Of a stretch of 64,000 nucleotides of DNA, positions 1,410 through 64,000 are shown in pieces. This stretch comes from Nereocystis luetkeana (Eukaryota > Sar > Phaeophyceae > Laminariales > Laminariaceae): positions 248,001-312,000 of the forward strand of contig JARUPZ010000024.1 in assembly GCA_031213475.1 (NCBI GenBank). The letters run 5' to 3'. A program made the position numbers and the translations under genes. Below the pieces are notes generated by a model. It was not told the DNA's origin, did not search any database, and saw only the letters and a program-made list of their open reading frames with translations. Every line of letters starts with the position of its first letter. Positions within the stretch are counted from its first letter, which is position 1.

Positions 1410-1725
1410 CCGGTTGACTATTGATAGGTGGTCGGCGTGGGTCCTCACTGAGATCAATTTTGTAGGTTCGAGTCTCACCGAGTGCGTACCCGTGGGGACA
1501 TTTTCTTCCATAAAAATCGCAAGCGGCAAACGCGAGAGGATGCGTTACTTGCAACATTCAATGAAAACCGACGAGCATTGATCATGCTGACCAACATGAT
1601 ATTCGCGATAAAAATATAGGCTAGTACGGGAGCTTATCCAGAAGACAGCTGAGGATTAAACATATTACGAGTTACCAGGTACGCTGGCAAATAAATGAAA
1701 ATTATGATAAAAACTAAAAAAAGTG
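1410..1725 (+). mobile_element. tRNA-like SINE, copy A
   Basis: This ~315 bp stretch aligns along its length with 12249-12580. Both begin with an A-box-like TGATAGGTGG / TGGTAGGTGG. About 35-40 bases later a B-box-like GGTTCGAGTCT / GATTCAAGTCT follows, and both continue CACCGAGTGC. That order and spacing match an RNA polymerase III internal promoter of a tRNA-derived SINE. Shared blocks downstream include CGCGAGAG, ACATTCAATGAAAA / ACATTCGATGAAAA, CGCGATAAAAAT and TACGCTGG. Copy A differs by a 7 bp insertion (TACCAGGTA at 1673-1681) where copy B has plain TA. The family and its exact ends have not been checked against a repeat library. Confidence 0.6.
1673..1681. repeat. TACCAGGTA micro-insertion in SINE copy A
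   Basis: Copy A reads TACGAGT-TACCAGGTA-CGCTGG where copy B (12249-12580) reads TACGAAT-TA-CGCTGG. The flanks match and the only size difference is CCAGGTA, so this copy carries CCAGG between two TA dinucleotides. Confidence 0.75.
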
Positions 1726-1852
1726 AGAGTGTTTCATTGCTCCGAGTACTACTGTCATACTCGCACAGTAGTACTGTACTCGGATTACAACTAACTGTAC
1801 GAAATCCTGCCAGAAGTTGGCAGTATACCCGCAGCACAGAAAATCTCAAGTA

Positions 1853-2358
1853 TGAAGGAAGGCTCATAACCTCGAGGGTCATGACCTGAAGGAATAATGC
1901 ATGTTCAGGCTTTGTCTTCTATGATGAGAAGAGATAGACGCAGAGGCGGCACCGAAGTGTCTGTGAAGATCACTTGTGATGAAGAAAGAAGATGGTTTGA
2001 AATTGGCGCTTAATTGGCCATTATAGAAGGAATCTTGATCTCAGAGATCAAGAGGAGAAGAAGAAGAGGAAAGGAGAAGAAGAGGGGAAAGGAAAGGAAT
2101 GGCCCCACCTTGCTCACTCTTCTATTCCTTTCCTTCCCTCTCTTCTTCTCCTTTCCTCTTCTCCTCTTGATCTCTGAGATCAAGATTCCTTCTATAATGG
2201 CCAATTAAGCGCCAATTTCAAACCATCTTCTTTCTTCATCACAAGTGATCTTCACAGACACTTCGGTGCCGCCTCTGCATCTCTTCTCATAGAAGACAGA
2301 GCCTCAACATGCTTTATTCCTTCAGGTCATGACCCTCGAGGTTATGAGCCTTCCTTCA
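1853..2358. mobile_element. ~500 bp near-perfect palindrome (foldback element)
   Basis: The left arm starts GGCTCATAACCTCGAGGGTC at 1861 and its exact reverse complement ends near 2350. The arms (about 1853-2097 and 2115-2358) pair almost continuously around a centre near 2105, including the purine-rich GAGAAGAAG block and its CTTCTTCTC partner. The few differences are single bases and 2-4 base indels. High arm identity implies a recent origin or gene conversion between arms. Matching frames on both strands are a consequence of the palindrome, not genes. Confidence 0.85.
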
Positions 2359-2732
2359 GGTTATGAGCCTCGACTTCTAGTCGACACATCGACCGGCATC
2401 GAGGAACGGAACGACATCTCTATCGGTTCGTCAAGTTCTACAGGAACTACGAAGAACGTTTTACCGGTTTTCAAGTGCGGAGGAAAAGCTATTTTTTTGT
2501 TCTCCAACAACCACAGGACCAGCACCGACCTGGCGACATCTACATCGAATTTCGTCAAGTAAGTGTGTTCTACAGGGTTACCTCAAGGAGGACTGCTTTC
2601 ACGCTCCCATGCGCGAAGCGGGTAAGGGGACTACTGGTGCGCATTCACGCGCGCAGCACGTACGAGTAAGGAGTCCGGTTTCACGCTTTATCGCGCGAAA
2701 CTCGTATTCGTACGTACAACATTGTTTTTTTC

Positions 2733-2960
2733 ACGCTGTAAGCCCAAAATAAGTCACGCGACCATTTTTGTGCCATCACACACAAAAATTTGTGTTCAAT
2801 GCTGCTTTGGAGCTGTAAGCGTGGAACACGTCACACAACTATTTCTGCTCATCACACGCGAAGCTAGTTTTCACACTGCTTCCACGCTGTAAAGTACGAA
2901 GAACGTTACAAGACTGTTTCTACGCCATCAGAAGCAAAGTTAGTTTCAACCCAGTTTTGA
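2733..2960 (+). repeat. Diverged ~75 bp tandem repeat, three units
   Basis: Units begin ACGCTGTAAG (2733), AGCTGTAAGC (2811) and ACGCTGTAAA (2883). Each continues with a GTCACGCGACC / GTCACACAACT / GTTACAAGACT block, then TTTNTGCCATCA-like and TTTTCA-like blocks. Related TTCACGCT words extend from about 2590 to 3150, so the array may once have been longer. No coding function is apparent. Confidence 0.6.
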
Positions 2961-5900
2961 CGCCATCGAGCGCGAAGTACGGTAAAGCCACTTCTTCAAG
3001 TGCATTGTTCAAGACCTACACGCGCTGTAATACACGCAGCCAGGTCTTTGACGAATCAGCTACTCAGCGTAGTATCGGGAGAACCACCTCCTGCCTATAC
3101 GGGGCTTTCACGCCTATACGGGGCATCCATTAAATTTCCAGCAACGGCTTTCACGCTCCAAGCGGGGGGCACGAATTTAGACTCGTAAATAATACTCGAA
3201 CAATACTCCTGCGTAACGGGTTTTCGCTCATCATAGCGAAAGGGCGTCTACGCATGCGTGTACGAGTAGCAGTTGTTACTGAGTACCAGGTAGTGATCTA
3301 TCTGCTCACACTGCACAAAGCCAGGTCATCGAGTTCAAAATTGCTCTGCACGCAGGAACTAGATGAGGAAATTACTTTTCTTTGCACACAAGCACTCTTT
3401 GTGTAACCTGCACCGGACGAATCCACACGTCAATAGTGCGTACATCGTTCAACAGCTGGGGAGCAAATATGGCACTAGCCATCACTTCAGCTACGGTCAA
3501 CTAAACGGCCGATTCAACGTCGCAGACTACACGTCATCCACAGCGATGGAGGTACACCGCCCAGCTGCATCTACTCCATCAGCTTCTTCGACTACTGCTG
3601 TGACTACCACGACTACTTCGCGATATATATAGGTCTACTACTCGTACGACCACTTCCGCTTCATATCTATCTACGGCCTCTAGGTGGCATATCGGCGTCC
3701 TGTTCTTCGCAGCGACTTCGAGTTCAACATCACTACAATGTACATACGTACCTTAAATAGTACCTGCAGCATTGGCCCCTGGGATTTCTACTTCTACGAC
3801 AGCCAGTTTCTGCGGCTTCTACAGCAGCAGCAGTACCTACAAGTTTTCTTCCTGTACTACAACATCAACACTACTAACCGGAGCAAACATCTGGCAGCAT
3901 CAACGTGGTCTACGCAACGCACGAGGCAACATCCCCATGATCGAACCAACGCCCGCTTTGTCTATCATCAACGGACGTACGGGGGGATCAGAGATCGGGA
4001 CTTTTCGACGGCGACTTCTTCACAGCAAATAAATTCAATTATTGCTTTTCAAAACGTACCATCACAGGACCTGACACCACGTCCAGCCGAGCCATCTCTT
4101 CATTATCATCGGAGCTATAGATATGGACTATCACCAGCAGCATAACTTCACGACCATTTCTCCAAGCGACTCCGTTCTGCTCTCTTCTACTTCCTGAACA
4201 TGAAGATCATCACGAGCAGCAACACCAACTGCGACGCAGCATTGCGCCACGAAGCAGAAGAGCCTCCAGCAATACGCGCCAGGTTATTTCTTACTATTTT
4301 TGCTTTTTTGCTTTTGTGGGGAAGGTTTACGTTTGCATAGCTTTATTTCGAGTACGTATCATACATACACGCTCAAAACATGCTGAATGTACTGTTAATA
4401 AACAATTCAGTACGTTTACGCCTACAGTTTTCTATTTTTCTGCTTTATTTAGGCATCCGTTCAGGGGGCGCGTTGGACACAGCAGACGGGTTAAAACTTT
4501 ATTTTCTAGGGTATACATCGCTGGTAATCACACCACGATTTGTTTTATTCCTTGATTTTCGCCTACATACACTAGGTACTAGTCTGTAGTCATACGAGTT
4601 AAATACGAGAAATAAATACGTACACACGTATATATATACTGGACAACACGTCCCAGTTTTCTCAATATCTCGTACTATTTTGCAGTATGATTTTCTGAGT
4701 ATCTGGTTTCTACACCGTAAGCGTAAGCTACTGACTGACATTACGGGGGCGTGTCAGCATATATATGGGCGTTGACATCCATATCTATTGTGATGTATGT
4801 GCAGTCACTTCACACGAGCTTACTAAGACGTCTTAGAGTATCTTATGATAGATACGGAGAAATACGATATTATGCTGACAAAGTACTGAGCAAATCGGTA
4901 TACTTCCACACCAACAGCAGTGGTGAACCGGAAATAAATGGTGCGAGTATGGCACAGTCTCCACAGCGCATATATATCGCAATTCTACGAGTACTGGCAG
5001 TACCCTCCAAACACTTGCAAATACACAAAGCACCCTGAGTAAATTTTCTCGCGAATCCTTCACTTTACCGCGAGGTTTTTGAAGCGTCTGTTCAACATTG
5101 CTTGACGCATGGCAAAACAATGGGCATCCTCCCGATCGCCTACCTCGTTGTCTATCAAGACATATAATATATATATATATATATGAAGTGCATCTATCTA
5201 TCTATCTATCTATTATTTGATCCGCGATAACGAAGTTAAGAGGCAGAGCCTAAAACAACACGAGGCAGTTGACGCGAGCTATCTTCCCATCGAATATCAC
5301 TTACTTAAATAACGCGAACGAAGCGAGCCATCAGCCAATCAATTTCCTGTATTAACGCGAACCGCGTCAAAGTACGCCGCGTTTGTCGTCAAATGAATTA
5401 CGCCGCGCACAAACCACGAAACGACAAACAACACGGGTCGCAGCTCGCACACCCGCAGACGCGACATATAATCAACCTATCTATGATCAACGAGCTTCGA
5501 GCCGGGCAAGACCACAACTATACAGCATCATCAATAGTATAGGCCCGCCAACAATCAAGTGCCCAATAAGAAACTAAAGCTTACTTTTGGGGCGAGCCTA
5601 AGAAACAACGTCAGAAAGAGACCTGGATTATTTGTCGACCGAGTTAAGAAAAGGCAATAATAGAAGAAAGAGCAACATACGGTCCGAGGTTCATTAAGAA
5701 AAACGTGTAGTTTTCACCTTAATCTTGAGCTAAATAAAAATCCCGTACCAGGCACCGCCGTACAGTACAGTTACGGTATCGCTTCTTCAGCAGCTAGCTG
5801 GCAACGGGCAATGCACTCTCATGTAAAAAGAAAATATAGCAGCTAGCTGCAAATTATCAATCCTGTACAACATTCGTACGGTTCGGCAGTATTCTCAGTG

Positions 5901-6096: not shown

Positions 6097-6207
6097 TATT
6101 ACGGGGGACCATAGTATATAGCACCAAATACATACTGTTGGTAAAATCGGGAAATATATAGGTTTTTGTGTGTACAGCAGGTCCTATATATTATGGCCCC
6201 CCGTATA
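6097..6207. mobile_element. 110 bp TIR MITE (family 1)
   Basis: It begins TATTACGGGGGACCATAG and ends TATGGCCCCCCGTATA, the inverted form, with the internal ATATATAGGTTTTT block seen in the other copies. It has no coding capacity. The terminal GTCC sequences are slightly decayed (GCACC on the left). Confidence 0.85.
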
Positions 6208-7074: not shown

Positions 7075-7500
7075 GATAGTGCCAGTGTTGTCTGTTTTCC
7101 ACACGCCAGGTGCTAAATATGTTTTCAGTTGGCGCCTGGCCCACCCACGCCACAGATACCCGGCCGAGCTGTGAGCACTGTAACACTAGCGCGGTTCGGA
7201 GCCCCTATCTATCCAGCACGCTCCGTCAAGAGATCGTGACGCTGTCTTTGCATTTATTTGTCGATCGACGTCGATCCTGAAATAAATATAAAAGGCGTCT
7301 ATTTCTTGCCATCGGAGAGGATTCGAGATTTTTGCCGTCGTCTGTCTTCTACCAGGTAGGTATAAACCAGCGCCAAAATACGTTTTTATCTGACGCCTGG
7401 TCGGCCCACACACATCACCAACCGAGGAGTGAGAACTGTGATACTGGGGTGGGTCGGAGGGAAACCCTAGCCAGGGCGTTCCTTTTAGACTTGATGACGT
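7075..7500 (+). repeat. Diverged tandem duplication (~260 bp units)
   Basis: Two units, about 7090-7255 and 7340-7500, share TGTCTGTTTTCC / CGTCTGTCTTCT, GGCGCCTGGCC / GACGCCTGGTC, then GAGCTGTGAGCACTGTAACAC / GAGGAGTGAGAACTGTGATAC and a matching GATCGTGACG / TTGATGACG end. Divergence is considerable. The second unit contains a TACCAGGTA site at 7350. Confidence 0.6.
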
Positions 7501-8524: not shown

Positions 8525-9164
8525 GTATCGTCGGGAGGCCATTCAATTATATGCGTATAATAGGGTTTCACAATTAATAGCTACTGCTGTAGCGATATAT
8601 ACCAATAATCTAGGGAGGGTGCTTGTTCGTTACCTGGTATGAAATATCTTGTCGTTTTTCAACTTTCTGAAAGGGTAGTAAAAAAAAGGTAAGCATGGCC
8701 ACTTTTGGGCCAAAATCAGTTACACACTCGAAACAAGTACAATCACACGCCAGGAACGCTGCTACTGGCCAGACTGGCATCGTACGTGATTGTAGCTCGA
8801 AGAGGCCAGGATGTACGTCACCTTACTTACTTACTTTCACTTTGTCACCAATTTCGACCCAAACAGAATCTAGATACGCCATACGTGCCCTGTGTTTTTT
8901 CTCTGCGTCTACGTCTGCGGTCCCTCGATTGCCAGTCTTGATTATATTATAAATTATGTACAGTAGTTACTCGTACGTGCGTACATTATTATGCATGCAT
9001 ACGTACGCTCATACTATTTTACTGTATTGTCATGTTTTCCTCTTCTTTGTTTGGGGTGTGCTTCAGTTAACTGTTGATGATGTGATGTGTACGCGTCTCT
9101 GTGTTGTCTCCTCTATGGTCACAGGAAGGAGTCCTATTATTATTACCGCATCCTGTGGACAAAC

Positions 9165-10424: not shown

Positions 10425-10890
10425 AAATATGTATCAAGACACGCACGCGTTTTGTCATCACTCGAGAAATTTCCTAGAAGCAAAGGAATCAGGAAAGTTA
10501 ACTTTCACATCCTTCCTTGGAGAAATATATAATATACGTATGAAAATCTGGAAGAGAAGACTGAAAAAATAGAGCAAAAAAATCATACATGAAAACTACC
10601 TGGTATGGAAATAAATCAACTCTTCGATAAGAATGGGAGTTTTTTTTCCAGAATTTGTAGTAAAGTTTTGAAACAGTTGACGATGTGTATCAAGATACGG
10701 AGGCGTTCAGTCATTACCCGACAATTTTTCCAGAAGCTAAATAATCAGAAAGGTTAACTTTTACATTTATTTTTAGAAAAAAAATATCAAGCATGATAGT
10801 CTGGAGGACTGAACAATTATTCCGCGAAAAGAACATAGAAATTATGGAGGGAAAGCTCTCAGAAGAAACCAAATGACCCTTAATAATCCT
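10425..10890 (+). repeat. Tandem duplication of ~250 bp
   Basis: Unit 1 (10425-10640) and unit 2 (10676-10890) align through TGTATCAAGACACGCACGCG / TGTATCAAGATACGGAGGCG, TCCTAGAAGCAAAGGAATCAG / TCCAGAAGCTAAATAATCAG, GTTAACTTT(C/T)ACAT, and TCTGGAAGAGAAGACTGAA / TCTGGAGGACTGAA. Unit 1 alone carries TACCTGGTA at the place where unit 2 has TA. A partial relative (GTGTCAAGATACGAAGGC) occurs near 14835. Confidence 0.7.
10597..10605. repeat. TACCTGGTA micro-insertion in tandem unit 1
   Basis: Unit 1 reads CATGAAAAC-TACCTGGTA-TGGAAATAAA. The aligned part of unit 2 reads CATAGAAAT-TA-TGGAGGGAAA. Flanking alignment holds on both sides, so the difference is a 7 bp insertion at a TA dinucleotide. Confidence 0.65.
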
Positions 10891-12248
10891 CATTTATTTT
10901 CGAAAGTATAACACATACCAGGTATATATTATACTTCGTATTATTATATATATGCAAGTTGCATGAGACACTTAGCAATCTGGCCGAGATCGCGCGAGAG
11001 CCCGAATCTCGATAGACGGCGTGCTGCTCGAGCTACTCCTCTTCTTCTGGAGGATGGCCCCCTCGTTTGGCTGCCGCCTATTCACCATCATGTTGTCGTT
11101 GCTCGATGATGCTTCTTGTGGTCCCGTGTTGTTGCGGTGCTGCGCTCTCGGCGATCGCTGCCCGATGCCTCACGCCGAGGAATGTTTTGTTTATGTTCTT
11201 GATGCATCCTACTACGCATATTTTTGACGGCTCATTTGCATCGCCCATTTTATTTATCAACCAGGACACACACAATTCGCTGGTGGCAACCGTGGTTTTA
11301 TTGGGCGGTGAGGGCCCACAAATTTAATTTGCGCTTTACTACTTTGTTGGAGGTTGACACGAATCGGCCGATTCATGTGGCCTGTCATTATTACAAAAAA
11401 AATAAAAAAAAAATCGAAGTTTAGGCAAATCTTCAAAATGTAGTTATTCATTCGTGAATATTGCCCTTCCATCATCGGCATACATACGATTCGGCATACT
11501 ATTATACGATGAATTTGCTTGAAACAAGCATCGCATAAACCGCTGGGGACTCACACCCGTTCATTTTCGCCCTTGTCTGCCAACCCCAACCCATCCATGA
11601 TTTGATCGCGTATTCTGTACGTGCCTCCCAGTGGAGTCAGTACAAAAACGAAAATTGAGCAGGCCTTAAAACACGGTTGGTAACTTGGGGGAAGTGCCCA
11701 ATCCTCGATGCATTTTATAATTTATTTGTGTCCTGAAAGTATCATTGTCGGAATCGCGGGGGCAATAACATTAATAAACACCCATTGCGCAACAAACAGC
11801 AAGAACTGTATGGAGGGACGCATGTATGCGCCTCGGAGTGGAGTAAGGTTCGTTCTTATCGGATTGTTTTTCACGGTAATTTCCATGTGTTTTATGCACA
11901 TTTTTTCCCGTCTTCCAGGTTGATTTTCCCGTCATTATTTCCTAATATACTTGTGAAATTTGACTTGCCTGTTTTTTTGCTTATTTATGAAGAATTTCGC
12001 TAATTAATTGTGACAGAATGCGCCTCCGTATATATTCCCAAGTGTTTTCAAACTTGTCGAATAAAAAAAAAAACACTCTCTCTCCGGTAAGGATGGATCT
12101 AAGTCGAGACTTCTACAAAAAAAACCAAAGTTCTGTAATTTCTGGTAGACTACCAGTATTTGTCGAACAAACACGAACAAACAAAACAATATACCAGGTG
12201 AAAGAGAACATGCGTGATTACTACCTTTATTCTACCCTATGTAATCCC
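10891..12248. other. No recognisable gene
   Basis: There are short open frames on both strands only. A TACCAGGTA site lies at 10916. A Cys/Met-rich 68-codon frame at 11021-11227 has no recognisable motif. Confidence 0.4.
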
Positions 12249-15235: not shown

Positions 15236-15724
15236 TACCTCTGGCGGACAAAAATTGCCTCTTCTTCCGCTGAGAGATACATTCATTCGTGGTCATCTAT
15301 TATCTGTTCCCATACATTCTCACCACGAATTTCGGAATTTATCAAGAAATTTCGAGTTGTACTAAAATTCAGAAAGTAGTAATTCCTATATGAATACATG
15401 TTCTTGTCATTGATTGTGCACAACTCCTATTCTACTATGGACGATATACATACGTATATACCAGCATTATAGTAGTAGGCGTATTACGCAGCTATTAATA
15501 GCAAAATTGAATAATAGTATCAACTCTCTACCAGGTACCTGGTATTGAATAACCACTCACAGCTGATGACATATATTAATCACGTTAATCTTACAGTACG
15601 CATATAATATGAAATTGCTCTGCACCATATTTGTTTTTTTAGCACAAATGTGGTGGTTGGTGTTGATGATCAGCACCTACCTGACGACTCAGGGTGAGTG
15701 AGCTGGTTGATCTTTGTTTCGATA
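15236..15724. other. No recognisable gene
   Basis: AT-rich sequence. The doubled motif TACCAGGTACCTGGTA lies at 15529-15544. Nothing else is recognisable. Confidence 0.4.
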
Positions 15725-16100: not shown

Positions 16101-16433
16101 AAATTAAATAGAGTATTTATATTACGAAACGTGCGAAAAAAAATACAAAAACTACGGAGCAGTGAGTTGTAGTTGTGTTGTTGTTGCTGTTTTTTTATTA
16201 ACGAATTTTCATACCAGGTACCAGGTACTTCATATTTATTCCACCCACAACACCTACCTGGCATAGCCGCAAGCTCGCCACCACACACAAGAAGCACAGG
16301 GATCACTCAACTCACGGCCACACAAGTAAATGCTGTGGTGTGGCCCAAAAAGATGCCAGAGGAGCCAGCCTACGGTAGGCGTGCACCCGATACTCGGACA
16401 ATACCTGGGAGAAATTCGTTCGTGCCACCCGAC

Positions 16434-17794: not shown

Positions 17795-18040
17795 ACACTT
17801 GTATGCGCTATTACTCCTAAAATAAATACCAGGTATAAGATCAAAATTTTCATCGTAACTGGTAGTTCCTCACTTAAGGATGTCAATTGGTCAGAAACCT
17901 CCAGCCCCAAAAGTGCAACCCCTATCGTGGGGTGACTCCTAGGTGGCATATCATGAAGCGAGACGCAAAACGTGCGCTGCCAAGGGGATGTAGGGCCGAA
18001 TGTTTAACACTAAACCTAGTAGTTTGGTGTCAGGCAAAAC

Positions 18041-18835: not shown

Positions 18836-19129
18836 CAGTCACTGTGATAACCTTTGAATATAACAGGGGGCAAAACAATACCTGGTAGTAGAGTGTTATC
18901 GTAGAGCGAAATTTTAATTGTTTTTTTTCGGCGGTAAACTTATCCAAAAATGGAGTCTCTCCAGATTGCGCTTTCTCGATTTTTAAATATTGGCCTACTT
19001 TAATATCTCCTCGGAAAACGAATCGACAGGTAGGTGTCGGAGTGCAATAATTTGCACGACGTGCGTGGTTTGCTGTATCAATCTCGTATACTGCCGCAAT
19101 GCCGTGTACCCGAACCAAACGTTGCTGCC

Positions 19130-19240: not shown

Positions 19241-20738
19241 ACACAGCGCTGCAGCGAGCCCTCCAAAGGCACCGCCCCGAACCCGACATCAGCACAGGAA
19301 ATAAGCAGAGTACAATAAACCTTCTGGCGGCCTGCGTTTCATCGGTTCCCCTTGCCCTGCTGCTCTCCCAATAAGTACGAGACCAAAGAACAAAAACAAG
19401 CAGGCAAAAACGACAAATATGCAGTACCTGCTGTATGTACGTGCGTACTCGTACTTATTACCCAAGTAGCTTTCCTGGTACCAAGGTACCGGTATATATA
19501 TGATCACGATAGAAGAGCGCGGCTTCAGACAGAGAGAGGCGAGAGAAAACGAGACAGAGAGAGGCGAGAGAAGCACCAGACAGAAAGGCAAGCGTCTTTG
19601 ATCCTCAGAGGAGCTGTACTCGGCGACCACAGCTATCAACAGCCGTATTTTGCTTGTCTCGTCGGAGACGGCCGAGGAAGGGTGTTCCGCAGCCACATCT
19701 CTGCACACAACTATTAGGGCTGCCTCTGTGCTCCTACGGGTTTTGTAAAACAGCACGGTCAACGAATAAAAAAGGGTCAAAAGCGCAGGGAGTATCCGCC
19801 AGCACCACATCACCAGCACTGCCCCCCACCGTGACATACATATAGCTCAGACCGCACACTTTTCCCACGAGGGCCGTCTCTCGACACGTGTCGTTCACAC
19901 GAAGGTCAAGCAATGTCGCGAGGCAACGACGCAAGGGCTTGTGGTCAGGTGGTCAGCTCCATTCGGTCGCGCCTACACCGTATTCGTCGGGTGTGCGCTT
20001 GGCCCACCACGGAGGCTAGGGGAGATGTAAACCGACCGTCAAGCGTGGTCGTTGTCGTTTTCGGGTCTATGTAAGGATATCTATGTTTCAGGATCTATTT
20101 ATCTACGAAAAATTGCTTTTTTTGAAGTATTCATAACCCGGACGTATTTGATTTGTGCAAATTTGGAAAGTGCTACCAGGTACTTACTTGCTTTTTGCAA
20201 ACCGTCGGGAACGGGGGCGCACACGTAGTCGTTGTATTATTAGAGTCATTCTTTCACAAAGCGCTACCACTCCAATGCCAGGCAAGTTTTTTCTCCTTTT
20301 TTCTTTTTTTTGCCAAAACAAATCAAGAGAATACATGAATATATATGGAAGAAGAACAATTTTTGCGAAGAAACACCCTCACCTACCTGGCAAATCTGGA
20401 GGGAAAAAAAGGAGTAATAGTATAAGACCTCGAATTTTATTTTTAAAAGTGTATCGAAATCCAGAGACGCTTTATTTACCACGATCTGCGATCCGTCACA
20501 ACATTGGGCCAAATATCGGCAGGGTCACATTCCGCATACTTCCAAGAAAAATGGGGGGAAATCTGGAACTTAAAAAAACGCGTTAAAAAATACCTCGATA
20601 TTCTGAAAACGAAAACTCTACGATAATATAGGTGCTTCCTACTCCTATAATAGGGCGTGTCCTCTGAAAGTTTATGCTAATAAGGTTGAAATGTGGGGCC
20701 CTTTTCCTTTTTTTGCCTCTCCTGTGTGACTTCACCTT
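19241..20738. other. No recognisable gene
   Basis: A 182-codon minus-strand frame (19289-19837) contains hydrophobic stretches but no family motif. It overlaps a purine-rich GAGAGAGGCGAG repeat (19525-19570) that inflates frame length. A TACCAGGTA site is at 20174. Confidence 0.4.
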
Positions 20739-20825: not shown

Positions 20826-21564
20826 GAAGCGTGTAAGGAGGCGTAGTTAGGGGCGCGCTCGGGAAAAAATCGATTTGCTTTTCATTTGGTATGATGCGCA
20901 GACCACATATCAAAAGAATGGGGACCACGTAGACTGACTGGTCGATATATATGTGTAAACATGATATATATATGCCTGGTCGATATTTATTTGTAAAATA
21001 TATAGACAGGACCGTAGGTGTGATATCGAAATTTCGTCGAAACTCATACCAGGTATTTGCAAGCTGTGTGAGGTGCTTTGATCGGGTGTACTGCGAGTCT
21101 TATATTGTTTCTTGCAGGATATACAGTCCGTATGCGAGGATGATAAACTCTGAAGCTGGATATGTATAGACGCATTTGTCACGAATAGGGTAAAACGTGC
21201 CTATCGTTGACGTCCGAACACGCATTCAAGGAAGGATACATCTCAAAGTCATGCATGAAAGACTCTATCCACTGGATGGACTAGACATCGGGTTATTAGA
21301 GGTCCGCATCATGGTCCGTGCTGATCCATCTGACCACGGATACCTCCAGAATCGACCCGATCAGGCCCGGTCCTTGTGACAACATAACATACATGCATGT
21401 GTCCCTCTATTAATAGAAAGGGATGTGGACAAAATTAGGTATGCCTGTTGCATCAGAGGTAAAAATAGTTAGACCGAAACGAAGTGATAAGCAAACGCCA
21501 CCTAGGTCCTCCTGTGGAATCTTCGGCCATGAGAAATCACACACAGACATATCGTTTTCGAGCC
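20826..21564. other. No recognisable gene
   Basis: AT-rich at first, with two ATATATAT patches and a TACCAGGTA at 21047. No motif-bearing frame is present. Confidence 0.4.
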
Positions 21565-22974: not shown

Positions 22975-23065
22975 TATAAGTATTGATAGTAAAAAAGGTA
23001 AATACTTATCAGGTAGGTTTGTGTATCTACCCTAGGTCTTATTGACTATGGTCCCCCGTAACAAT
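22975..23065. mobile_element. Family-1 MITE, left end lost
   Basis: The right arm CTAGGTCTTATTGACTATGG, then TCCCCCGTAA, and the interior (TAGTAAAAAAGGTAAATA, TAGGTTTGTGTAT) are present; the left terminus is not recognisable. The interior carries TATCAGGTA (23007-23015) where other copies have plain TA. Confidence 0.7.
23007..23015. repeat. Variant micro-insertion TATCAGGTA inside a MITE
   Basis: Other family-1 copies read AAATATA-TA-GGTTTTT. This one reads AAATACT-TATCAGGTA-GGTTTG. The extra 7 bases are TCAGGTA, one substitution from the common CCAGGTA. Confidence 0.55.
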
Positions 23066-23586
23066 ACCTCGTAGACAGGGCCTTTTCGAGTCAAAAGTAG
23101 GTACGAGTGCGATGTCAGCCTGGCCAATAATAGCAGGGGTCTTGGCGTGTGATTTGTACATGTATGACATATGTATGTGTAGAGTGTGTAGCTGATTCTG
23201 ACCCAGAAGTTACCAGGTAGACCCGCTTTTTTTGGCTAAATCCCCTCCACTCTAGGAACTTAGATCCTCTTGGGTCTGGCAATTCCTCGATAAATACTCG
23301 TGCAGTACACTAAACGAGCTTTGCTCGGCTCACGTCGGTCGTAGCGACGGCTACAACAAGGGACCCACGATTTCCCAAAAACCACTTATCTGCGACTCTA
23401 TCGGCTCTATCGGCGAATATACAGAGGCTCAACATAGGTGACCGCTATTATTATAGGCACATGAACCCATGCCTCACAGTGCTTCGCGATAAAAAAGTCT
23501 CGCTCTAGGCGAACGAACAGCGAAACCAGGGAACGCCAACTCCTTGAGCGTGCTCGGGGCTCCAAGCGGTCGAGCGCCGATGGACC

Positions 23587-28326: not shown

Positions 28327-28327
<1 letters not shown>

Positions 28328-46458: not shown

Positions 46459-48339
46459 TTGAGACTGACTGGGCCAAGGTCCGAGAAAGTGAAGGTTTTC
46501 GGTGTTCTTTCGAGCGGAATACCTGGTACTAACTATCGGGATACTCTCATCGGAAGCTGTACTTTGTGCGACTACGTTGGTCGTTTCGTGGAGCTAATTA
46601 TCTGGCATCTGAAACCTGTGGATCCCTGTCCTCTCGTCGGCCCGGCGCGCACTATGTGGAATGGCAGGCTGCCGACAGGAGCTGCTGAAATGATGGCTTT
46701 CGCGAGGCAATCTTCGCTTCTTCTCACCCACAGGGACGCCATGACCCTGCTGGCGGAACTACTATTCCACCAGCTTGTATGTTTCACCGGAGTATCGAAG
46801 GAGTGGAGACGCATTTGGGGGAATCTTCCGAAACTCACGCGAGCTACAACGGCTGACACGTCTATATCTCAGCTGCAGTGGAGCTTCGATAGCGGTGACA
46901 GAAAAATATATATATTACGCCCTTTTATTGCCGAACACTGCGAAGTTGATATTTTGCGGTGTCCCCTCTCAAAAGGTTGTGGGTTTGACCAGAACGGTTG
47001 CTTCATGGCGGCCGCTAAGGCGAAACTCAAAGAGGATTCCAATGGGTGTTCGTAAAAAAATCGTCTTCGCGCTATTTATTTTGCTTTTCGGGTGCAGCGG
47101 GGGGCCGCCTGCGTATTCTGAAGTGGACGCCCGCTGACAACTGCTTCTGGGACTGTGAAACGTGCAGCTCAGCTGCCGGTGTAAGGGCATATCGATGTGT
47201 TGCAGTGGGAACGTTGTGAACACTGTCCATGGGATGCCGAAACTTGTTTCAAGGCTGCCGCGCCTGGCCTCCTCGCCATTCGTCAGTGGGCGTACGCTAA
47301 CGGCTGCCCCCGGAACGGCACAGTGTACAGCGCCGCTGCAGAATCAGGCCGTCTCGATATCTTGCAATGGGCTCGTTCAGAAGGCTGTCCTTGGAATGTC
47401 ACCACTTATTCCAAAGCTGCTGCGGGCAGACACCTCGGTATCCCTCAGCGAGCTCACTTTGACGGGTGTCCCTGGGATCACACAACATGCAGCGCGGCTG
47501 CTGGTTCAGGCCGTCTCGATATCCTGCATTGGGCACGTTCACAAAGCTGTCCTTGGTATCCCTACACTCGTTCCAGAGCTGCGTTGGGTGGGCAAATTTA
47601 CGTTCTTCAGTGGGTGCGGGAAAGTGGCTGAGATTGGAATGATCAGACGTGCGAGAAGGCTGCCGCCAGAGGGCACGTTGAGGTAATTCGGTTGGCCGGC
47701 AAACGGTGCCGCTTGTGGCTTGAACACGGCATACGGGGCTGCTGGAAGGGCCATCTGGAGCTTCTTGAGTGGGTGAGGGCGCAAGGGTGCCCCTGGAGCT
47801 TCATAACTTCTACTTGCGAATCCGCTGCTGAAAATGGACGCGTGGACATGATGGGGTGGGTTTTAGCGAACGGCTGCCCCTGGTCTCCTATGTAGCGGCA
47901 GCTTGAAGTCGGAATCTTTTCAGTATGAGATGAGTTTCTGCTCGCGGCTACCCCTCGGATAACTATGACACTTTGAAATCTATACCATACAGCTGCGCGT
48001 ATAGGGCATGTCGGCGTGCTTGAGTGGGCACGGACAAGGGGATGTCCCTAGGATGCCCATCCCTCTTGGGCGGTAGCCTGGATGGGAGATGTCGAGGTGT
48101 TTGAATGGGCACCGTTGTACGGCTGTCCCTGGAACAAACGCACGTGCGGCGCTGTTGCCAGTGCCGAGCGCCTGGGTATCCTGCAGTGAGCACGAGCACA
48201 AGGCTGCCTATGGGATCGCGAGACTGACCGGGGCGCTAAAATGTACAGACACAAGAAAATGGAGGAGTGGGCAACGCGAAACAGCTGTCCTCAGCAAGGG
48301 CCGGAAATAGAGTACGCCGATGGGTTGTTGTATGGATGA
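46459..48339 (+). pseudogene. Ankyrin-type repeat gene, frameshifted
   Basis: The first frame (46459-47055) ends in an F-box-like N-terminal region: LLFHQLVCFTGVSKEWRRIW followed by LPKLTRATTADTSISQLQWS, the usual lead-in before the repeats. About 33-residue repeats follow with the pattern GxxxxLQWxRxxGCPWDxxTCxxAA: GRLRILKWTPADNCFWDCET (47100-47160, shifted frame), then GHIDVLQWERCEHCPWDAET, GRLDILQWARSEGCPWNVTT, GRLDILHWARSQSCPWYPYT and, after a stop, GHLELLEWVRAQGCPWSFIT and GRVDMMGWVLANGCPWSPM. Degraded units (GHVGVLEWARTRGCP) continue to about 48310. Such repeats are ankyrin-like and found in large families in brown algae and other stramenopiles. At least five stops or frame changes make it a pseudogene unless spliced unusually. 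A TACCTGGTA sits at 46520. Confidence 0.82.
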
Positions 48340-50593: not shown

Positions 50594-50616
50594 CACCAAG
50601 TCAATCCAATACATAC

Positions 50617-51280: not shown

Positions 51281-54200
51281 ATATGAACCAGTCTGACCCC
51301 AAATATATATTATATGGGAACATCGGAAAACCCCTAAAGAAAAGGCATATTTGAAATACAGCGGAAACTAGGCGATACACGCCTATCATAGTATAGTGTT
51401 TACTCGTGACACCATGCAGATCAACCATGGGCTTGAATTGAAAATGTATATTGTTGGACACAGGGATTCTTGGTTATCTTCCCCCCCAGGAGTCTCGGGA
51501 TTTCGCGCTTTTTTTGTCCGTGAGGATTTTTCGGAGTCTTTGCTGGGCCCGTACGGTTCGAAAAACCGAGTTTTTTCTACCGTATGTAGTGTTTTTGGTG
51601 CTTTCGGTTATTATTATATCAAGACCTGCAACTTGATCAGATGGTTATGGTGTTGGAAGGCCTCCGACCGTTAACATCATCAACGTTACTCCTACTACTC
51701 GTAGTGCTACGTGCTAGTTGTGGTCAGTACACTTACAAAGCGAAAAAATAGAATTGAAAAAAAAAACTGGCCCCAAAATTTTAAAGTAGAGCGGTGATCT
51801 CGCCGGGAATGGAACTGCGAGTGTCATATCTATACGCCTGCGTTCCACAAGCAAGCATGCTATTTAAAACACCAGTGGCAATGCCCCTTGTTTTTCGAGC
51901 AAAACTGGCGCCATGGTATCTGGTACCTGGTACGTGTTTTGCTGTCGAGGGAGATCTACGTGGGTCTGCTTCTTGCACGTTTCGTTTTCTTCCACTGTTT
52001 CTGCTGTGTGTGCATACCTACTGCGCCTACATTGATTGGTATCCGTACTGCGTGTACTGTGCTTGCTGCTGGAACGGCAACTACTGCTCTACTGCAACTC
52101 CGCGGCTATCTACTGATGTGTATACGTACGAACCTAGAGCAAATACTGCTGCCCCTGCTAATGGTGCACTCACGTGCCCACTGTGCTTCTTGCCATAGCT
52201 ACTACTGTGCAGCCGCTGGGTCATGCTTTCTGCACGACGTTTAGTGTTATCGTCCGTGTTTCCACTTGAAGTGGAGCTACGATCCTTAATAGGCACGTGA
52301 ATTTGAAGGCTCACTTTAGCTAGTTCGCTTGCCGCGAACTCGACACAGCCCCTTGTGGATAACGATCGCCGATTTGTTTCGATGGCACTCCCATTCCAAA
52401 TTATGTTTCGTTCATTCGGACCCGGATCCTGTACCAAAACGAGTTGTTGTCCTGCGCCAATCATCCTGTGGGCCAGCAGCTGACATGGTGCTGCGTGAGC
52501 ACCTACCTACGCGAAACCGAAAGGAAGAGGTTGAGAGAAGAATCAACACGATTCGACCAGTAAGTGAGGAATGCAGAATAACACACTTCGTCAGGCCCGC
52601 CCTTGTCTACCGTGGCTTTCCAGCGCGACATAGACCGTAATCCCCGCCATGTCGTGCCACCTGACGCAAGCAAGCCGGCCATTTTTTGAGGCATCGACAG
52701 CCACAGCAGGACATCTCACAGATGACCAAGGGAAAAGTCGTTTGCGAATCCATGCGCACCGGCCGGATTAATATCTGAATCGTCAAACATACGTATCCAA
52801 ACAGTTGGCACGAACACAAGTTCTGTTGTTGCTCGATGTCCAAAATCTCAGAACCACTAGAATTTAGACGATGTCATAGAAGACTAGTGTACGCGTTCGT
52901 CGATGGGCACACGCTGTTGATGAAAAGTTATATTTGATGTCTCCACAAGATGATTTTCGTAGAGCACACGTCAATGGGGGTCACTTTGTTCTTTTCGGAA
53001 TCGTGACAAACTATGAATATCGAAATCAATATCACGGTGGAGGCGGGCTACGGAGAGAGGGTAGCATTGTTCGGTCAGAATAATTATGATCGACGGGGCT
53101 CCTTAACCAAATATCGAAGGAATACCATCAGTGTTTCCGGATAGGATTCGTGATATGCCCTCAGGCTTCGAGATTGGTCATCGGATAGCACTTCGCGCTT
53201 TTGCTTGAAAACTATTATTGGATGAGCTAAAGAGCTCCTCGGGTGCGGAGCGGCAAAAATAAATGGTCGCTACGTCTACCTTACGGAGCACCAGTCGGTG
53301 ATGATCATAAGATTTCTGTAGCGTGAATAAACCTCGGATTCAACGATTTTCGTTCCGATTGCCTGGGCATAGTGACTCTAGCCTCTGACAAAGTGAAACA
53401 CGATTACCGCAGACAGACGTGGAGTGCGATTTATCGTCAACCTTGCCGACCAGAGTCACGAGCCTTTGTGCACAACGGCGGGTGACGTGGGGAAAGCCAC
53501 CGCCGCGAGCGCGTGGTCGTGACTTTTTGTAGGCTTAGGCTTAGGGTGTTTGTTTCAACGATGGTAAAGTAACGGCTGTATAATAAGGAAATAAATGCGT
53601 TCCAACAGTTAGTTGCTTTCAAATAACTCCGAAACAGAAAAACGAAGTCAAACAAGTGCGGCGAAGAAAATACATGGGTTTGTTGAAGCCATAATAGAAA
53701 CTAAACCATAAGAGGATACCGGTACAGAACATGGAAAATATCTGCCAAAATAAGCATTTATTTAGCGTTCAGTAAAAGTCGTCTCGTCATTGCACCCGTT
53801 CGTTAAACTTCCAGTTTTGTTCTTCGCTTTTTGGTGGTGCTGGTTGGCAACTCGGACTTCACGGAACCAACACCGTTTTGGCTGCTAACGACTGCTTCCC
53901 GGTGAGCCCGACGCCCTCGCACGCCGCGGAATGAGTGTCACTCAATTTTTCGGGCTGTGGTTGCCTGTGAGGAGATGTATCTGTCGGCAGACGAAGTCCA
54001 AACGCTCAGTTAGGGGTTGTTCCGTCTGCCGAATTTTGTGCGTCTGCCGAATTTTGTACAATTTTGACCACTGTGTCTGTAGCCCACCAAAGCCGAGGTG
54101 GCAGACCTCCGTTGGGACAACGCGGCCTGAACGTCTGGAGACAACCACAGGTCGCTGTAGATGAGACATTACTCGCCGCTTGCCAACGCACGCACCAGCG

Positions 54201-57375: not shown

Positions 57376-60300
57376 ATTCGGACGAATGCACGTTTACTAG
57401 AGGAACGAGTTCGAGATGTTACGCACTTTTTCGCTAGCGGCGCCGACCTCGAATGTTGGCCACGATCGCACAAACACGCTTTAAGCACACGCAGACAGCC
57501 TAGCAATGCACTTCGCATGAAGATGTTCAATGTTGAGGCGTATTCGTCTGAAGGACTTAAGGACTTTACACGGTGCCGACGGTGTTATGGCGCACTGTAG
57601 CACTCAGTGAAGTACGAGTCGTGCCTGGTACAACCCCCAAAGTGAAGAAATACAACTGTCTCTTACCACGCAAGTGCAGGAGCCTACCGACAAGATTGAC
57701 CCGTAAGCGTATCGGCAAGGGAAGCGGTTATGTACGCGGACCATGGATGGCAGGCGGGCAGATCAATAAGGAAGAAACGCTACTTGTAATGCGTACAGCA
57801 GTGCTACAGCCATCTGTTGAAGTGTGCCCTGTTGAAGTGTGCCGTCAATCACACCTCGTCTCGACGATGACCGCACGCCGAGGTACTGCACCGTTTCCAC
57901 CTTTCTACAAAAAGGCTCGGGATCCCCATGGATATATTCGCAATAAGGTAGTATTTCTTGAATATCTATAGTGTGCGTTCATACACCAAGCTGTGGTTTT
58001 CACTGCTTGCTATCAATACCATCAGCACTACTAACCGAACAGGTAGGTACAAATCTGAGTGCAACAGTGGCGGCACCACCAACCAGCCAATCAATCACAA
58101 AAAATCAGGAAATTTAAAGTGAATCCGAAACCTTTAGCCTGTTGACGGCGGTACAGATAGATGGTGTTGTATCGCGGAGTGCATTTAGTTGACGCCCTTG
58201 TTGAGGGGTTTCGCGGTAGAGAAACCGGTTCGCTAAAAAAAGGTAAACATGTTGGGTGGATCAATGGCGCGGTAGAGGCCAAGATACGGACAAAATGCGT
58301 AGTGAGTGGGCGTCGACAAAGGTCAACGAGAGAAAAACATACCAGGGTATATACTAGTAACACACAACAAGAAGAGCAAAAACACGACCACAATCGAAAA
58401 CAAAAACACAAGAACAGCATCGAAACCAAAAGCACAGGGAAGATACAAACAAAAAACGAGAAGAAGAAAGTGCAGGGCGTGTTTGAGGCCCGTCAACACA
58501 CTCTCGTCAACATGTCCTCTCTCCGGATAGCAGTACCGGTTGGGCACCATTGTACGGACCTGCCCACACCAGATCTCCTTAAAGAATACCTTAAAGAATA
58601 CCCACATACCCCGTACAACTGTGAATACCCGAGCATCGCTCCGGACTCTACCAAGGCCCTTCCGGCCAATACCTATCGAGACACACGTCTACATGGTTCC
58701 AACCGCAACAATACTAACGAATCGTTATTGAGCGACTACCAATCGGTATTCAGGTTAAAAAAAAGACGTGTTGTTCACATGAACCCCTGCTGATTTGCCG
58801 GGAAATCTGCGCTACTCCACTGCTGTGCGCACCCAACCCCTGACTACGACTGAATGGACAATCAAACGAATGAGGCTTCCATCGTCACACCGTACCTGGC
58901 GTAAACGCTGGTTGGTGCCATGCAGGAGAAGATCCATCGTCCCGGGTGGCAAGAAGAGCAAGGCAAGCAAGGACCGCGTGTTAAAAAGTGTGTTCGCCAC
59001 GACGCCTCGACACCGTACCGAAGATAGTGCCACACATCGGTTCGCGTTAAAACAAATAGGGCACGATATTTGGCGATATTTGAGATTTAATCGCCTGTTC
59101 GTTGAACATGCGATGTACGGGTGTTGGTGTGGGTGATGTTCAACTTGAAGATGTACCTGCCCCTTCGTCAACACACCGATTTGCTGTCTGGATTTGGCCA
59201 AACCGTGCTGAGGTTCCACGGAGGCACTTACGACGCATTGACAAACCCCAACACAGACACTTAACCAGGTCAGAAAAGCCGGCGGTGACATCATAATGTT
59301 ATTCTCGTCCGAACGAGAGACGACCGCGCATCGGAAGACACGTGTCGAGCATCAGAATCAAGCAAAGGTCCGCGTAGATGGTCCCCTGGGTTTCACAGGA
59401 ATCTCAGCCAGCCAGCTTTATACGTCGCCGTACGATAGTTGCCGATAAAGGCTATCCGACTCACCGCATGGTGCGGTGAAATCACTGCTAAAGCACACGC
59501 CTGATGCGCAAAAGCAGCCTGTGGGAGCATAACACACCTGCACAAATACCAACGTGCGCGAAGCATGCGATATGTCATTGGTATGGCCGTGTTTCCCCGC
59601 GACTGCTGACTTGCGGTGGATATCTTGCGCCTACTGACAATATCAGCACCCAGCCTGCAACGAGCATGACGCCGTGATAATGACAGGGTCAACAACCGGC
59701 ACACTGTGGGAGAACACCTTACAACGAAAATAACGGCAATGGATTGCTACACGACGGTTCGCTTGTGGCTTGACGAGTGACCTACGCAGGGATAAAAAGC
59801 CCCCGTGCTCGAGGTCCCCATTTATCACAGTGGCGGTCTCCCGGGCAGGCAGGCGTTGTGGCGATGATGAGGTGCCATCGAATGGTGAGAAGTGTCTATT
59901 ATTATTGATGATGTGCTTAAAACGTGCTACGGCAGAGGTTGAGGTTGCACGTGTTTACACCGAAAACAATTATCTCGCTGACGGCTGACGGGACTGCTCA
60001 ATACCCGGGGCGTACATACATGTTGATATTAATAGTAATGATTGTGAAATGTTCGTCTTTTTTGTCCAACTTTTCTCTCCGGACAAGCACTTCTCTGCGA
60101 TATAAAACGTGTTTCGCTCAACGTTTACAGCAACATGGCGGATCGTGTATCCGCCTTACGAAGCTAAGCCAATTTTGCATAAACGTCGGCCGCTGGGGAG
60201 AGGTGTATAACTCCCCACGTGCAGAGTCCGGGAGTGTTAAGGCACGACCCCTACTGTACGTAGCATGCCCAGATTTTGAGTGTGCACCAAGACACAAACG

Positions 60301-61080: not shown

Positions 61081-62314
61081 AAGTCTGTGCATTGTCCAAG
61101 CAGGCGGTTTGGGCGGCTTGAAGCACCCACAGGAAGGCCCAAGCAGAGCGAAATACGGACATGTTTGCAGTGATGTCGTGTCGCCGTCGACCCAGTATCT
61201 CACTCCTGGTTTTTCTGGCGTAAACGCGGCAGAAAACCACGGTTGAAAGAAGATTGCGTTACGTATAACATTTAATTATTTGTTGTACCTGCTATTTCCA
61301 ACAGCAGCTCTTTAAATTGCTCTGCTTCTTTCGGCCGTCTCTTTTCGGAACTGTTTCTTTTTTTTTAGTTCTAGCTTAAGTGTTCTACATCTATCTGTGC
61401 AAGCTCCTACCTCGCCTTCCTTCGATGTATCTCGGCTGCTGACCGTCTGTCCGTATTAGACAAGAAAGAGTGATCCGTAGTTCTTACGTCCGCTGCTCAT
61501 ACGTGTACTTCCGTTTCGTTGCTACTGCCATTCCCTGCTATTAACACTTTGAATTCAAGGATAGAACTCCCCCCTTTTGTACGCTTTGTCCAGTCCATTC
61601 TGGTTCTGGCTTTCTTTCCTCTGTCGTTCGACGCCTTAGGGTTGTTTTGCGCGAGGGACTTTAAGATGTCTTCTCCCTTCTCACTACCAGGTATTTGCTA
61701 CGTCCCCATATATATGGTCCACTCTTCTTCTCATTCGGGTCGCTTGCCCTCCTTAGTGTTTGGAATAAAGCCTCCCACTAGTATTACCTTTTCTTGCCTT
61801 TTATATTTTGTTACATCCACTTCTACTTCTTCTCCGAACTTCGACTCTGGGGGCATAATATATATAGTCAATCGGCGCGAAATTAACAGACAAATCGGAA
61901 AAATGGGAACGAAGCCTAAAATGAGAACCAAGCCGTATCTATCTCCAGAACCATGTGGTGTATCAGATAACCTAAATGATCCTGCGAAACCCCTTGGTCA
62001 GCCCTGTGAGAGGAGCTCGTCAGAACGGTCATGCTCCATCTCGTGCCTTCGGGTGGGCGCAAATAGCGATATACGCTGGCTCTATTGTGATTTCTCTAGA
62101 TGCTGGCTACCGCGGCGATGCCGAGGACTTCCAGCCTGAGCGACAGCTCATTCGAAGGCTGCTGTACAGCCCCACAGGACTGTCAACTTTTTTTCTTGGA
62201 GTTAGTTGTACACAATTGGTTTGCTTTCTAAAAAAAAACGTCCGTTCCCATTTTTCCGTTTTGTCTGTTAGGGAAAGAGACACGTTATGTCCGCCGGAGG
62301 CCATAATTTCGCGG
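61081..62314. other. No confidently recognisable gene
   Basis: A 206-codon plus frame (61519-62139) is hydrophobic at first and Ser/Arg-rich later, without a motif. On the minus strand 61931-61731 includes YKRQEKVILVGGF, faintly like an ATPase-fold strand but too short to assign. A TACCAGGTA is at 61685. Confidence 0.35.
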
Positions 62315-62640
62315 GAGAGATTTTATCGGCGGGACGGGACAGTAATTTTTCATGGTCACGGCGGAACGGGACGGTAATTGTTAGGTGTCACGGCGGGACG
62401 GGACGGTAATTATCCGGTATCACGGCGGGACGGGACGGTAATTTTCAACGGGAGAGATTTTATCGGCGGGACGGGACGGTAATTTTCAACGGGAGAGATT
62501 TTATCGGCGGGACGGGACGATATGTGACGACGGTCAGGGAATTTGTCGGCGCGACGGGACGGCGGGACCATTTTGACGGCGGTTTTACCGCCCTGTCCCG
62601 CCGTTACCGCCGTTACCGTCCCGCCGAAATACCGTGATAA
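62315..62640 (-). repeat. CCGTCCCG-rich tandem element, copy 3 (inverted)
   Basis: In reverse complement it has the same head as 14895-15235 (GGTAACGGCGGTAACGGCGG, GCCGTCAAAATGGTCC, CCGTCGTCACATATCG). An array of TTACCGTCCCGTCCCGCC units follows, with GATAAAATCTCTCCCG or GTGACACC spacers. About seven units of 33-43 bp. Confidence 0.85.
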
Positions 62641-63435
62641 GCCTTGCTATTTCCAGGGATTTTTCGGCCGAGCACGTTGCATTTTTTCCAAGAAACTTCA
62701 CGGCCATCGACATATATATCTCGACGCCGCCGTCACGATGATTGCTGGTTTGGGATTCAATTGTTTGTTTTTTCAAAAGGTATGAACGTCATTGGAAACA
62801 TTGCTCTGGATGGACCGTATATATGTGAGATGTATTGTTTGGCTCCCGCCCCCCTGGTAATATTTTTCCATACGATTTCGTCAAACATAGTGTCTTTCAC
62901 CACCTACCTCTTAAACTTCTATTATTATGTCATTATGTCACACAGGCACTTTTGGCTCCCCGCCCCCCCTATTCTTGCTAGTCGGCCCCTCCCTCTTTTT
63001 TCCCATCCATGCGTACTCGTCAATTCTGCATTATTCCCTCCCCCCCCCGTTCATTTAGCGCTTTTTTTGGTAAGTGCACCTAATGTCGGGGATTTTAAGA
63101 GTAGTAACTGACGAGACTTACTTCCACCGCCCAATGGAAATCGGTCAAGTTTTATGGGTATCTTATCACGAGATCCGACCTTCATCTCAATTGACCGTGT
63201 CGGGGTTACCATGCTGCGTTGGTGTGTTGATGTGTGTGCGTGTAAGGCGGTCTGCTTTCGTACTACCAGGTATTAATAGTGTTTTTTGTGTGCTACCCCT
63301 TTACTACCAGTATTACAATATATATGGGAGGAACTACAGGCGAAAACTTACCGGGTACTAACTACCTGTAAAAACTTACCGGGTACTATTAATAGTATAA
63401 TACCTGGTATTGGTTGTGCATGTACATTGTGACAC
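62641..63435. other. No recognisable gene
   Basis: This includes TACCAGGTA at 63264 and 63401 and a 26 bp tandem pair with TACCGGGTA at about 63344-63390. Frames lack motifs. Confidence 0.4.
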
Positions 63436-63688
63436 GCGTTCTACGATAGAGGTAGCACATTTCCGCTAAAAAAAATCGGGAGGCCAATCTTTTTTCGAAA
63501 AAAGCCGTACATTATTATATATTATAGTAAAATTGTTGTATACCTAAGTCATTGGATTATTCATCGGGACGCAATTAATTATTGGGTTTTGTGCTGAAGT
63601 CAGTTTTCGGGTGAGGTATGGAGCTCCCCTAGTGACGAGCTGCAAAAACAATTACCAGGTAGGATGAACCTGTATCATCGTGGAACGC
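63436..63688 (+). mobile_element. 250 bp TIR MITE (family 2), copy d
   Basis: The left end GCGTTCTACGATAGAGGTAG matches the consensus. The right end GATGAACCTGTATCATCGTG, then GAACGCC, is slightly decayed. Shared interior: CATCGGGACGCAATTA, GCTGAAGTCAGTTTTCGGGT, GAGGTATGGAGCTCC. It carries TACCAGGTA at 63653 near its right end. Confidence 0.9.
63653..63661. repeat. TACCAGGTA micro-insertion in MITE copy d
   Basis: Copy d reads AAACAAT-TACCAGGTA-GGATGAACC. Copy c in the same orientation reads AAAAAT-TA-GGGTGACCC and copy b AAAAGA-TA-GGGTGAACC. The difference is a clean CCAGGTA insertion at a conserved TA. Confidence 0.8.
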
Positions 63689-64000
63689 CCCATGTCAATC
63701 TATGCCTGGTTAGTTGAGGTTTTTCTGATGACTACATAAGTTTTGTATTTCGGTCTTAGCGTTATGGAAAAAAACGATTAGGTGAGTAGTAAGTTTACGT
63801 CTAGTTCGGATTTATTTGTGCTTTGATACGGGGGAAAAAAACAAAACGAGATGATGAGTAATTTTGTGGCCTGAATCTGGTTTATTGTGTCAAATCAACT
63901 GATTATATACCTGGTATAGCTCAATCGCTTCAACGTCTAAATCAATTTTTTGCGCTTTGAATAATTGACAAAAAAAAAATGTGTATTTCTTTCATGCCTA
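63689..64000. other. No recognisable gene
   Basis: AT-rich sequence to the window end with one TACCTGGTA at 63908. Confidence 0.4.

Follow-up and report, generated by a model that had tools for sequence, protein, structure and literature searches.

The palindromic 9-mer TACCWGGTA (W being A or T), dispersed through a 64-kb window of the brown-algal Nereocystis luetkeana assembly (465,085,209 bases; the window is the whole stretch analyzed, bases 248001–312000 of contig 24), very likely represents the excision footprints, or scars, of a TA-specific cut-and-paste transposon. This reading is carried by the insertion of 7 bp into TA, the range of products recovered from a single homologous site, a preference for particular TA targets, the occurrence of tandem doublets, and the genome-wide number of copies; a 5-nt staggered cut, annealing of the overhangs and the transposon itself would together account for them.

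The window contains 23 copies of the motif at 21 loci, with a central A in 15 and T in eight on the plus strand. All 21 start positions given in an earlier sequence-only reading of the window carry the exact 9-mer, two of them (15529 and 16212) doubled. The expectation of ∼0.5 copies per 64 kb given there agrees with dinucleotide shuffles (n = 100), which produced a mean of 0.49 and a maximum of 3, and no TA-N5-TA word in the window is more enriched than TACCWGGTA, at 38.7-fold over a third-order Markov expectation. Lack of genome-wide enrichment had been named as a refutation of the insertion model; the assembly contains 182,395 copies, compared with 1,744 of the reversed word. The shuffles and this count rule out chance or base composition as the source of the motif, which occupies ∼0.7% of all TAs (∼25 million TA dinucleotides, extrapolated). 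In 20 pieces of 10 kb outside the window (200 kb, two pieces adjoining the window), 66 motifs were found against one reversed word, with at least one motif in 19 of the 20 pieces. Counts per 10 kb in these pieces were Poisson-like (mean 3.3, variance 3.27) and do not support local hopping, suggested by the uneven spread within the window (14, 2, and 5 loci). The window and outside pieces together form a 264-kb sample with 86 scar loci, in which A and T centers number 48 and 41, respectively.

Tandem doublets occur 15,917 times genome-wide, compared with two for the reversed word, and some triplets are also present. Among the plus-strand matches listed, 19 of 59 doublets have mixed centers, and slippage alone is excluded as their source because both A-T and T-A forms occur; the A-T form exceeds the T-A form in the same list (14 versus 5, p = 0.06). 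In the 264-kb sample, 95 one-mismatch neighbors were observed (52.6 expected) beside 89 exact copies, with the larger excesses being mostly transitions. By our own estimate, the scars have diverged by ∼5% per base, which looks like neutral decay.

Filled and empty TA sites

TACCWGGTA is almost certainly a 7-bp insertion into TA. The sequence-only reading had proposed that TA becomes TA-CC(A/T)GG-TA, and this model is supported by relatives within the window, by copies of a miniature inverted-repeat transposable element (MITE), and by genome-wide counts of filled and empty sites. Within the window, 14 site/relative pairs at six loci were picked from spanning matches, and all 14 aligned with a higher score once the 7 bp were deleted, with the best position for the deletion no more than four bases from the motif in 12 (the exceptions involve 7350 and 10597). 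Of the empty relatives originally named, those for 1673, 63653, and 23007 hold but that for 10597 is weak, and 17827 provides a further good case; 20174 and 21047 are weakly paired and carry the motif in both members. In the 264-kb sample, 18 of the 86 loci have a spanning relative at an E-value of 1e-4.

The cleanest test was provided by a brown-algal MITE with ends TTACGGGGG...CCCCCGTAA, in which five insertions were found (L012:2762, L012:2824, L038:1290, L050:2909, and window 23007, where L denotes a stretch of sequence that was read). The emptied copy scored higher against 28 of 31, 24 of 24, 30 of 33, 27 of 31, and 28 of 31 related stretches, respectively, counts that one copy may enter more than once through its two arms. 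The five insertions share three TA positions: the arm TA hosts L012:2762 and L050:2909, the TA before GGTTTTT hosts L038:1290 and window 23007, and L012:2824 sits in an inner TA, where the alignment is less tidy. Empty copies have a single TA and filled copies a TA on both sides, the duplication typical of Tc1/mariner insertion. Comparison of TA with the motif at homologous repeat positions, put forward in the sequence-only reading, was run genome-wide on this MITE: the arm TA is filled (GGTCC-TA[CCWGGTA]TTAACTATGG) in 424 instances (217 + 207) and empty in 21,233 (10,503 + 10,730), with no occurrence of the reversed words for either in the whole genome. The exact motif therefore fills 2.0% of these arm sites, compared with the ∼0.7% of average TAs.

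Copies of the same MITE within the window lie at 6098–6207, 12861–12975, 16434–16606, the 23007 region, 24797–24912, 27097–27208, 34823–34930, 43519–43742, and 50484–50594, and the 17-base word of its arm alone has 21,233 copies in the genome.

Product spectrum and target preference

A search for TA-N(0–30)-TA at the MITE arm site, which products that have lost a TA would escape, returned 816 matches (415 + 401; control 0), and the product letters were readable for 58 of the 100 matches listed. They comprise 26 CCWGG, 20 derivative-like products, and 12 others. The derivative-like products are CCAGGG/CCCTGG (6), CCGG (2), doublets or triplets (4), and eight singletons (CCGGG, CCAGGGG, CCATG, CTGG, CC, CCAT, TGG, and CCAGGCAT), the short ones probably being scar-related; the others are T (2), TT (2), TTA, TTAA, CTCCGAG (4), CTCCGGAG, and one nested MITE. 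This spread looks like that of end-joined excision footprints, with imprecise length variants present at the target duplication, as in footprints as a mechanistic class. The products TA-CTCCGGAG-TA and TA-CTCCGAG-TA at the same TA hint at an additional class resembling footprints. All four CTCCGAG matches come from a stretch of ∼115 kb and are possibly copies.

Length variants are also enriched across the 264-kb sample, where TACC-N-GGTA with zero, one, and two intervening bases occurs 19, 94, and 17 times, where roughly 4.5 of each would be expected, and with three to seven bases occurs 4, 1, 7, 3, and 2 times. A spacing of eight bases is found 15 times (4.5 expected), partly from doublets and apparent mutated doublets, and one of 17 bases 11 times (control words 1 and 1), which lies outside the model. 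A candidate fill-in product, TACCATGGTA, was seen twice (0.34 expected), too small a number for a judgment. Several candidate scar forms were rejected or set aside: TACCTA, TACCATA, and TACCAGGA, as truncated scars, are at or under background in the window; TACGAGTA, as a second scar class, is frequent (48 versus 9.6 expected in 264 kb) but lacks the target signature; and long scars retaining both ends, such as TACCAGGTCACCTGGTA, resemble mutated doublets on reading.

The flanks of the motif revealed an AT-rich, palindromic target preference around the TA, of the kind seen in Tc1/mariner elements. With both sides pooled in the window, TA is present at −7/−6 in 11 of 42 flanks (null 3.0; P = 0.02 when corrected for 15 offsets). 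Both positions are A/T in 27 of 42 flanks (null 12.8, never above 24 in 5000 draws), with an offset chosen post hoc. At the 65 loci of the outside 200 kb, TA occupies −7/−6 in 33 of 130 flanks, where the null averages 8.1 and peaks at 19 in 5000 draws, and A/T fills both positions in 66 of 130 (null 35.7, maximum 54), with lesser TA excesses at −14, −4, and −2. The length variants share this signature, with TA at −7/−6 in 9 of 38 flanks of TACCGGTA and 3 of 14 of TACCAGGGTA, compared with 50 of 178 for the main form and a fraction of ∼0.07 for other TAs. The preferred target is thus a TA with a second TA five bases away, and the MITE arm site has this arrangement (TA-TTAAC-TA). A scar itself supplies a TA at the preferred spacing, which fits the abundance of doublets and triplets.

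Excision model and alternatives

In the proposed mechanism, an element would enter a TA, duplicating it, and its transposase would later cut exactly at the element 3′ ends and five nucleotides inside the 5′ ends, each chromosome end retaining TA and a 3′ overhang CCAGG. The two overhangs would pair and then be joined, and mismatch repair would yield CCAGG or CCTGG between two TAs; the ambiguous center would follow because two CCAGG overhangs form four G-C pairs around a central A/A mismatch. Imprecise joining could give rise to CCGG, CCAGGG, CTGG, TGG, and similar products. This overhang arithmetic was set out in the sequence-only reading, and no simpler account was found. Five nucleotides is probably the stagger, although a stagger of four with offset pairing would give an identical product. 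A low-copy, repeatedly jumping element would leave one scar per jump, and scars could therefore far outnumber resident copies. It is conceivable, at slightly less than even chances, that a single transposase with a 5-nt stagger, beyond the range described, made more than 100,000 excisions while very few copies remain resident, the scars outnumbering the element, attracting its landings, and acting as a near-neutral recorder of its activity.

The central A/T ambiguity is shared with the footprint of Sleeping Beauty, where it arises from a mismatch. The ends of Stowaway MITEs and plant Mariner-like elements differ in sequence from those proposed here. Cleavage by Tc1/mariner transposases falls within the 5′ ends, and non-homologous end joining (NHEJ) converts the resulting 3′ overhangs into footprints of terminal nucleotides between TAs; as in the scars, the TA target of Sleeping Beauty, Mos1, Tc1, and Minos is duplicated around element-end nucleotides (PMC7827188). 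An AT-rich palindromic target preference is also common to both (PMC7913693). NHEJ repair after excision of plant Mariner/Stowaway elements likewise leaves the target site duplication with element-end sequence, described there for tested elements and seen here as a genome-wide carpet (PMC4561436). The IS630-type element ISY100 shares the TA target, the staggered cut, and a predicted junction after rejoining, although its transposase cuts two nucleotides inside, giving TATATA junctions (PMC2170065). Among brown algae, Ectocarpus has abundant Mariner-Tc1 transposons (17 families with almost 12,000 copies), and the main text of that account does not contain the word "footprint" (PMC12477816). No description of TACCWGGTA or of a comparable carpet of scars was found in the open-access literature, judged mostly by title, and none of the matches listed for TACCAGGTA concerned algae or transposons by title.

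The sequence-only reading had likened the motif to Tc1/mariner-type footprints and predicted an element with the ends CCAGG...CCTGG. The footprint part is strongly supported by the product spectrum, the +1/−1 variants, the target preference, and tandem re-insertion, whereas the label expresses a resemblance only and no such element was found in 272 kb (the 264-kb sample and 8 kb of algal DNA borne by metagenome-assembled genomes (MAGs); less than 0.1% of the genome). Membership of Tc1/mariner is somewhat favored for the putative element.

An enzyme that adds CCWGG and duplicates the TA directly, for example by abortive, tip-only transposition with no full element, would produce the same target preference and tandem re-insertion, and would agree with the lack of a resident element in a sample holding 86 scar loci. 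The truncated and +1/−1 forms recovered from a single homologous site (CC, TGG, CTGG, CCGG, and CCAGGG) nevertheless resemble end-joined breaks, and we know of no enzyme that adds such a 7-bp sequence directly into TA; directed micro-insertion is consequently considered unlikely. Copying of a few scars along with their host MITEs or short interspersed nuclear elements (SINEs) could explain why the five MITE cases fall at just three TA positions and could yield the bias of filled arms toward CCAGG described below. Against such spread, 68 of the 86 sampled loci have no spanning relative, so that no repeat around them could be detected in the sample, the counts per 10 kb are Poisson-like, and several product types occur at one MITE site, making it a very improbable general source. 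CCWGG is a Dcm-type methylation recognition site, and the cyanobacterial HIP1 sequence is an over-represented palindrome; the present motif is also palindromic and very frequent, and might have arisen by point mutation and been kept by selection as a restriction- or methylation-type site. That origin appears scarcely credible given that homologous MITE sites differ in length by a clean 7 bp, that neighbors decay mostly through transitions, and that length variants are enriched.

Several observations weigh against excision footprints of a Tc1/mariner-like element. The main product has five nucleotides between the TAs, in comparison with 2–4 bp in Tc1/mariner footprints (PMC7913693), and ∼182,000 copies in one genome, with no element in the sequence searched, are likewise unlike that group. 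Of the 18 sampled loci that have a spanning relative, only six show a clean, ungapped junction (at least 60% identity), including one within a TATATA run; at the remaining 12, the junction aligns poorly or with gaps. Centers at the MITE site are uneven among the 58 readable products (20 CCAGG, six CCTGG), with a similar ∼2:1 ratio by eye among 100 of the 424 filled arms, and same-type doublets are in excess (40 of the 59 plus-strand matches listed, p = 0.009). Some filled arms and doublets may consequently be copies and not independent events, although the center biases could also result from an orientation preference of the element combined with strand-biased repair, or from partial copying of filled repeats.

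Within the small fraction of the genome read, the element itself was not recovered, which also counts against the footprint reading. The 272 kb contains 96 CCWGG ends that lack the 9-mer, and no convincing inverted pair was identified among them. DDE_1 (PF03184) profile matches number 28 in the genome, none linked to scars, and the three places that hold four of these show no CCAGG inverted repeats; a genome search with the PF13358 profile gave no match (30 candidates scored). Recurrent CCWGG-ended sequences were rejected as element ends, CCTGGGGTATGTACG... for conserved sequence outside the TA and CCAGGCGGATTA... and CCAGGAAAAAAC... because by eye they resemble internal parts of larger repeats. 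Such an element may be rare or extinct, or may have diverged from the profiles used. One further stretch (L048, contig C34:4445000-4449000) contains a large palindrome with nearly identical arms of more than 900 bases and two DDE_1 matches on opposite strands.

Transposition ordinarily leaves footprints only as a minor trace. One footprint at such a fraction of the TAs of a 465-Mb genome makes excision and repair measurable genome-wide: from a single assembly, one can read how breaks were repaired, which targets were chosen, and when jumps occurred, in a lineage whose transposon biology is little studied. If the scars of a single transposase do form such a recorder, they could be used to date activity and to distinguish strains. 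Possible effects on the host include frequent frame-shifting 7-bp changes and many new CAG|GTA splice donor-like words. In our judgment, standard repeat annotation would overlook the scars because each copy is only 9 bp.

Positions of the probable scars and other features

Table 1. Probable scars and scar variants in the 64-kb window (positions are those of the window; no strand is assigned)
Feature	Position	Remarks
Scar TACCAGGTA	1673..1681	Exact match; in a SINE-like repeat (label from the sequence-only reading); empty relative 12493-12549
Scar TACCAGGTA	3284..3292	Exact match
Scar TACCAGGTA	7350..7358	Relative 7053-7201 without motif; best 7-bp gap 7-15 bases off
Scar TACCTGGTA	8631..8639	Exact match
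Scar TACCTGGTA	10597..10605	Exact match; empty relative weak
Scar TACCAGGTA	10916..10924	Exact match; each side has a TA at a distance of seven bases
Double scar TACCAGGTACCTGGTA	15529..15544	Exact match
Double scar TACCAGGTACCAGGTA	16212..16227	Exact match
Scar TACCAGGTA	17827..17835	Empty relative 49288-49420 (-)
Scar TACCTGGTA	18879..18887	Exact match
Scar TACCAGGTA	20174..20182	Exact match
Scar TACCAGGTA	21047..21055	Exact match; ungapped relative without motif in sampled piece L036
Variant scar TATCAGGTA in MITE	23007..23015	Better fit to 28 of 31 related stretches once emptied
Scar TACCAGGTA	23211..23219	Exact match
Scar TACCAGGTA	26607..26615	Exact match
Scar TACCTGGTA	46520..46528	Exact match
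Scar TACCTGGTA	51924..51932	Exact match
Candidate +1 length variant of scar, TACCAGGGTA	58340..58349	Class enriched 12.6-fold in 264 kb
Scar TACCAGGTA	61685..61693	Exact match
Scar TACCAGGTA	63264..63272	Exact match
Scar TACCTGGTA	63401..63409	Exact match
Scar TACCAGGTA	63653..63661	Three empty relatives: 24436, 6395, 49108 (-)
Scar TACCTGGTA	63908..63916	Exact match

A second dispersed palindrome, CTATTAATAG, occurs in the window at 1192 (first nine bases only), 15492, 21407, 30347, and 63386, and elsewhere at L012:1018 and other places. Its 10-mer has 22 copies in ∼277 kb, and TACTATTAATA exceeds expectation 72-fold in the 264-kb sample. This palindrome has no scar-like target signature and is possibly another insertion or a repeat end.

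Scars and the MITE were also sought in other databases. Three GTDB contigs carry the MITE pattern (L010, L011, and L012; JALZUO010000060.1, JALZWC010000131.1, and JALZWD010000061.1, respectively), all filed as bacterial MAG contigs and containing none, one, and three scars; L012, which derives from another source, is algal DNA within a bacterial MAG contig. Since the three hold, or look fused to, brown-algal MITE DNA, these GTDB genomes seem to be contaminated with eukaryotic sequence. In IMG/VR, the doublet pattern gave nine matches, with no excess beyond the doublet in eight of the nine stretches; L002 has one further copy. The MITE pattern gave no match there.

The protein encoded at 56446–57393 (−) has named family matches in brown algae (Ectocarpus "imm upregulated 3," Scytosiphon, and Hapterophycus), with 72–73% identity to models labeled Undpi1, read as Undaria (a kelp, Laminariales). 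One named match is to a Hyphomicrobiales MAG, and the best unnamed match reaches 97%; no matches to this protein were found in IMG/VR or, with its profile, in GTDB contigs. An open frame at 39014–40375 (−) contains a reverse transcriptase domain (PF00078, E = 2.3e-12). Long inverted repeats lie at 27547–30302 (nearly 2.8 kb end to end) and 1867–2344, and degenerate tandem repeats of the CCCGTCCCG type were read from the sequence at 14900–15240, 18540–18830, and 62310–62640.

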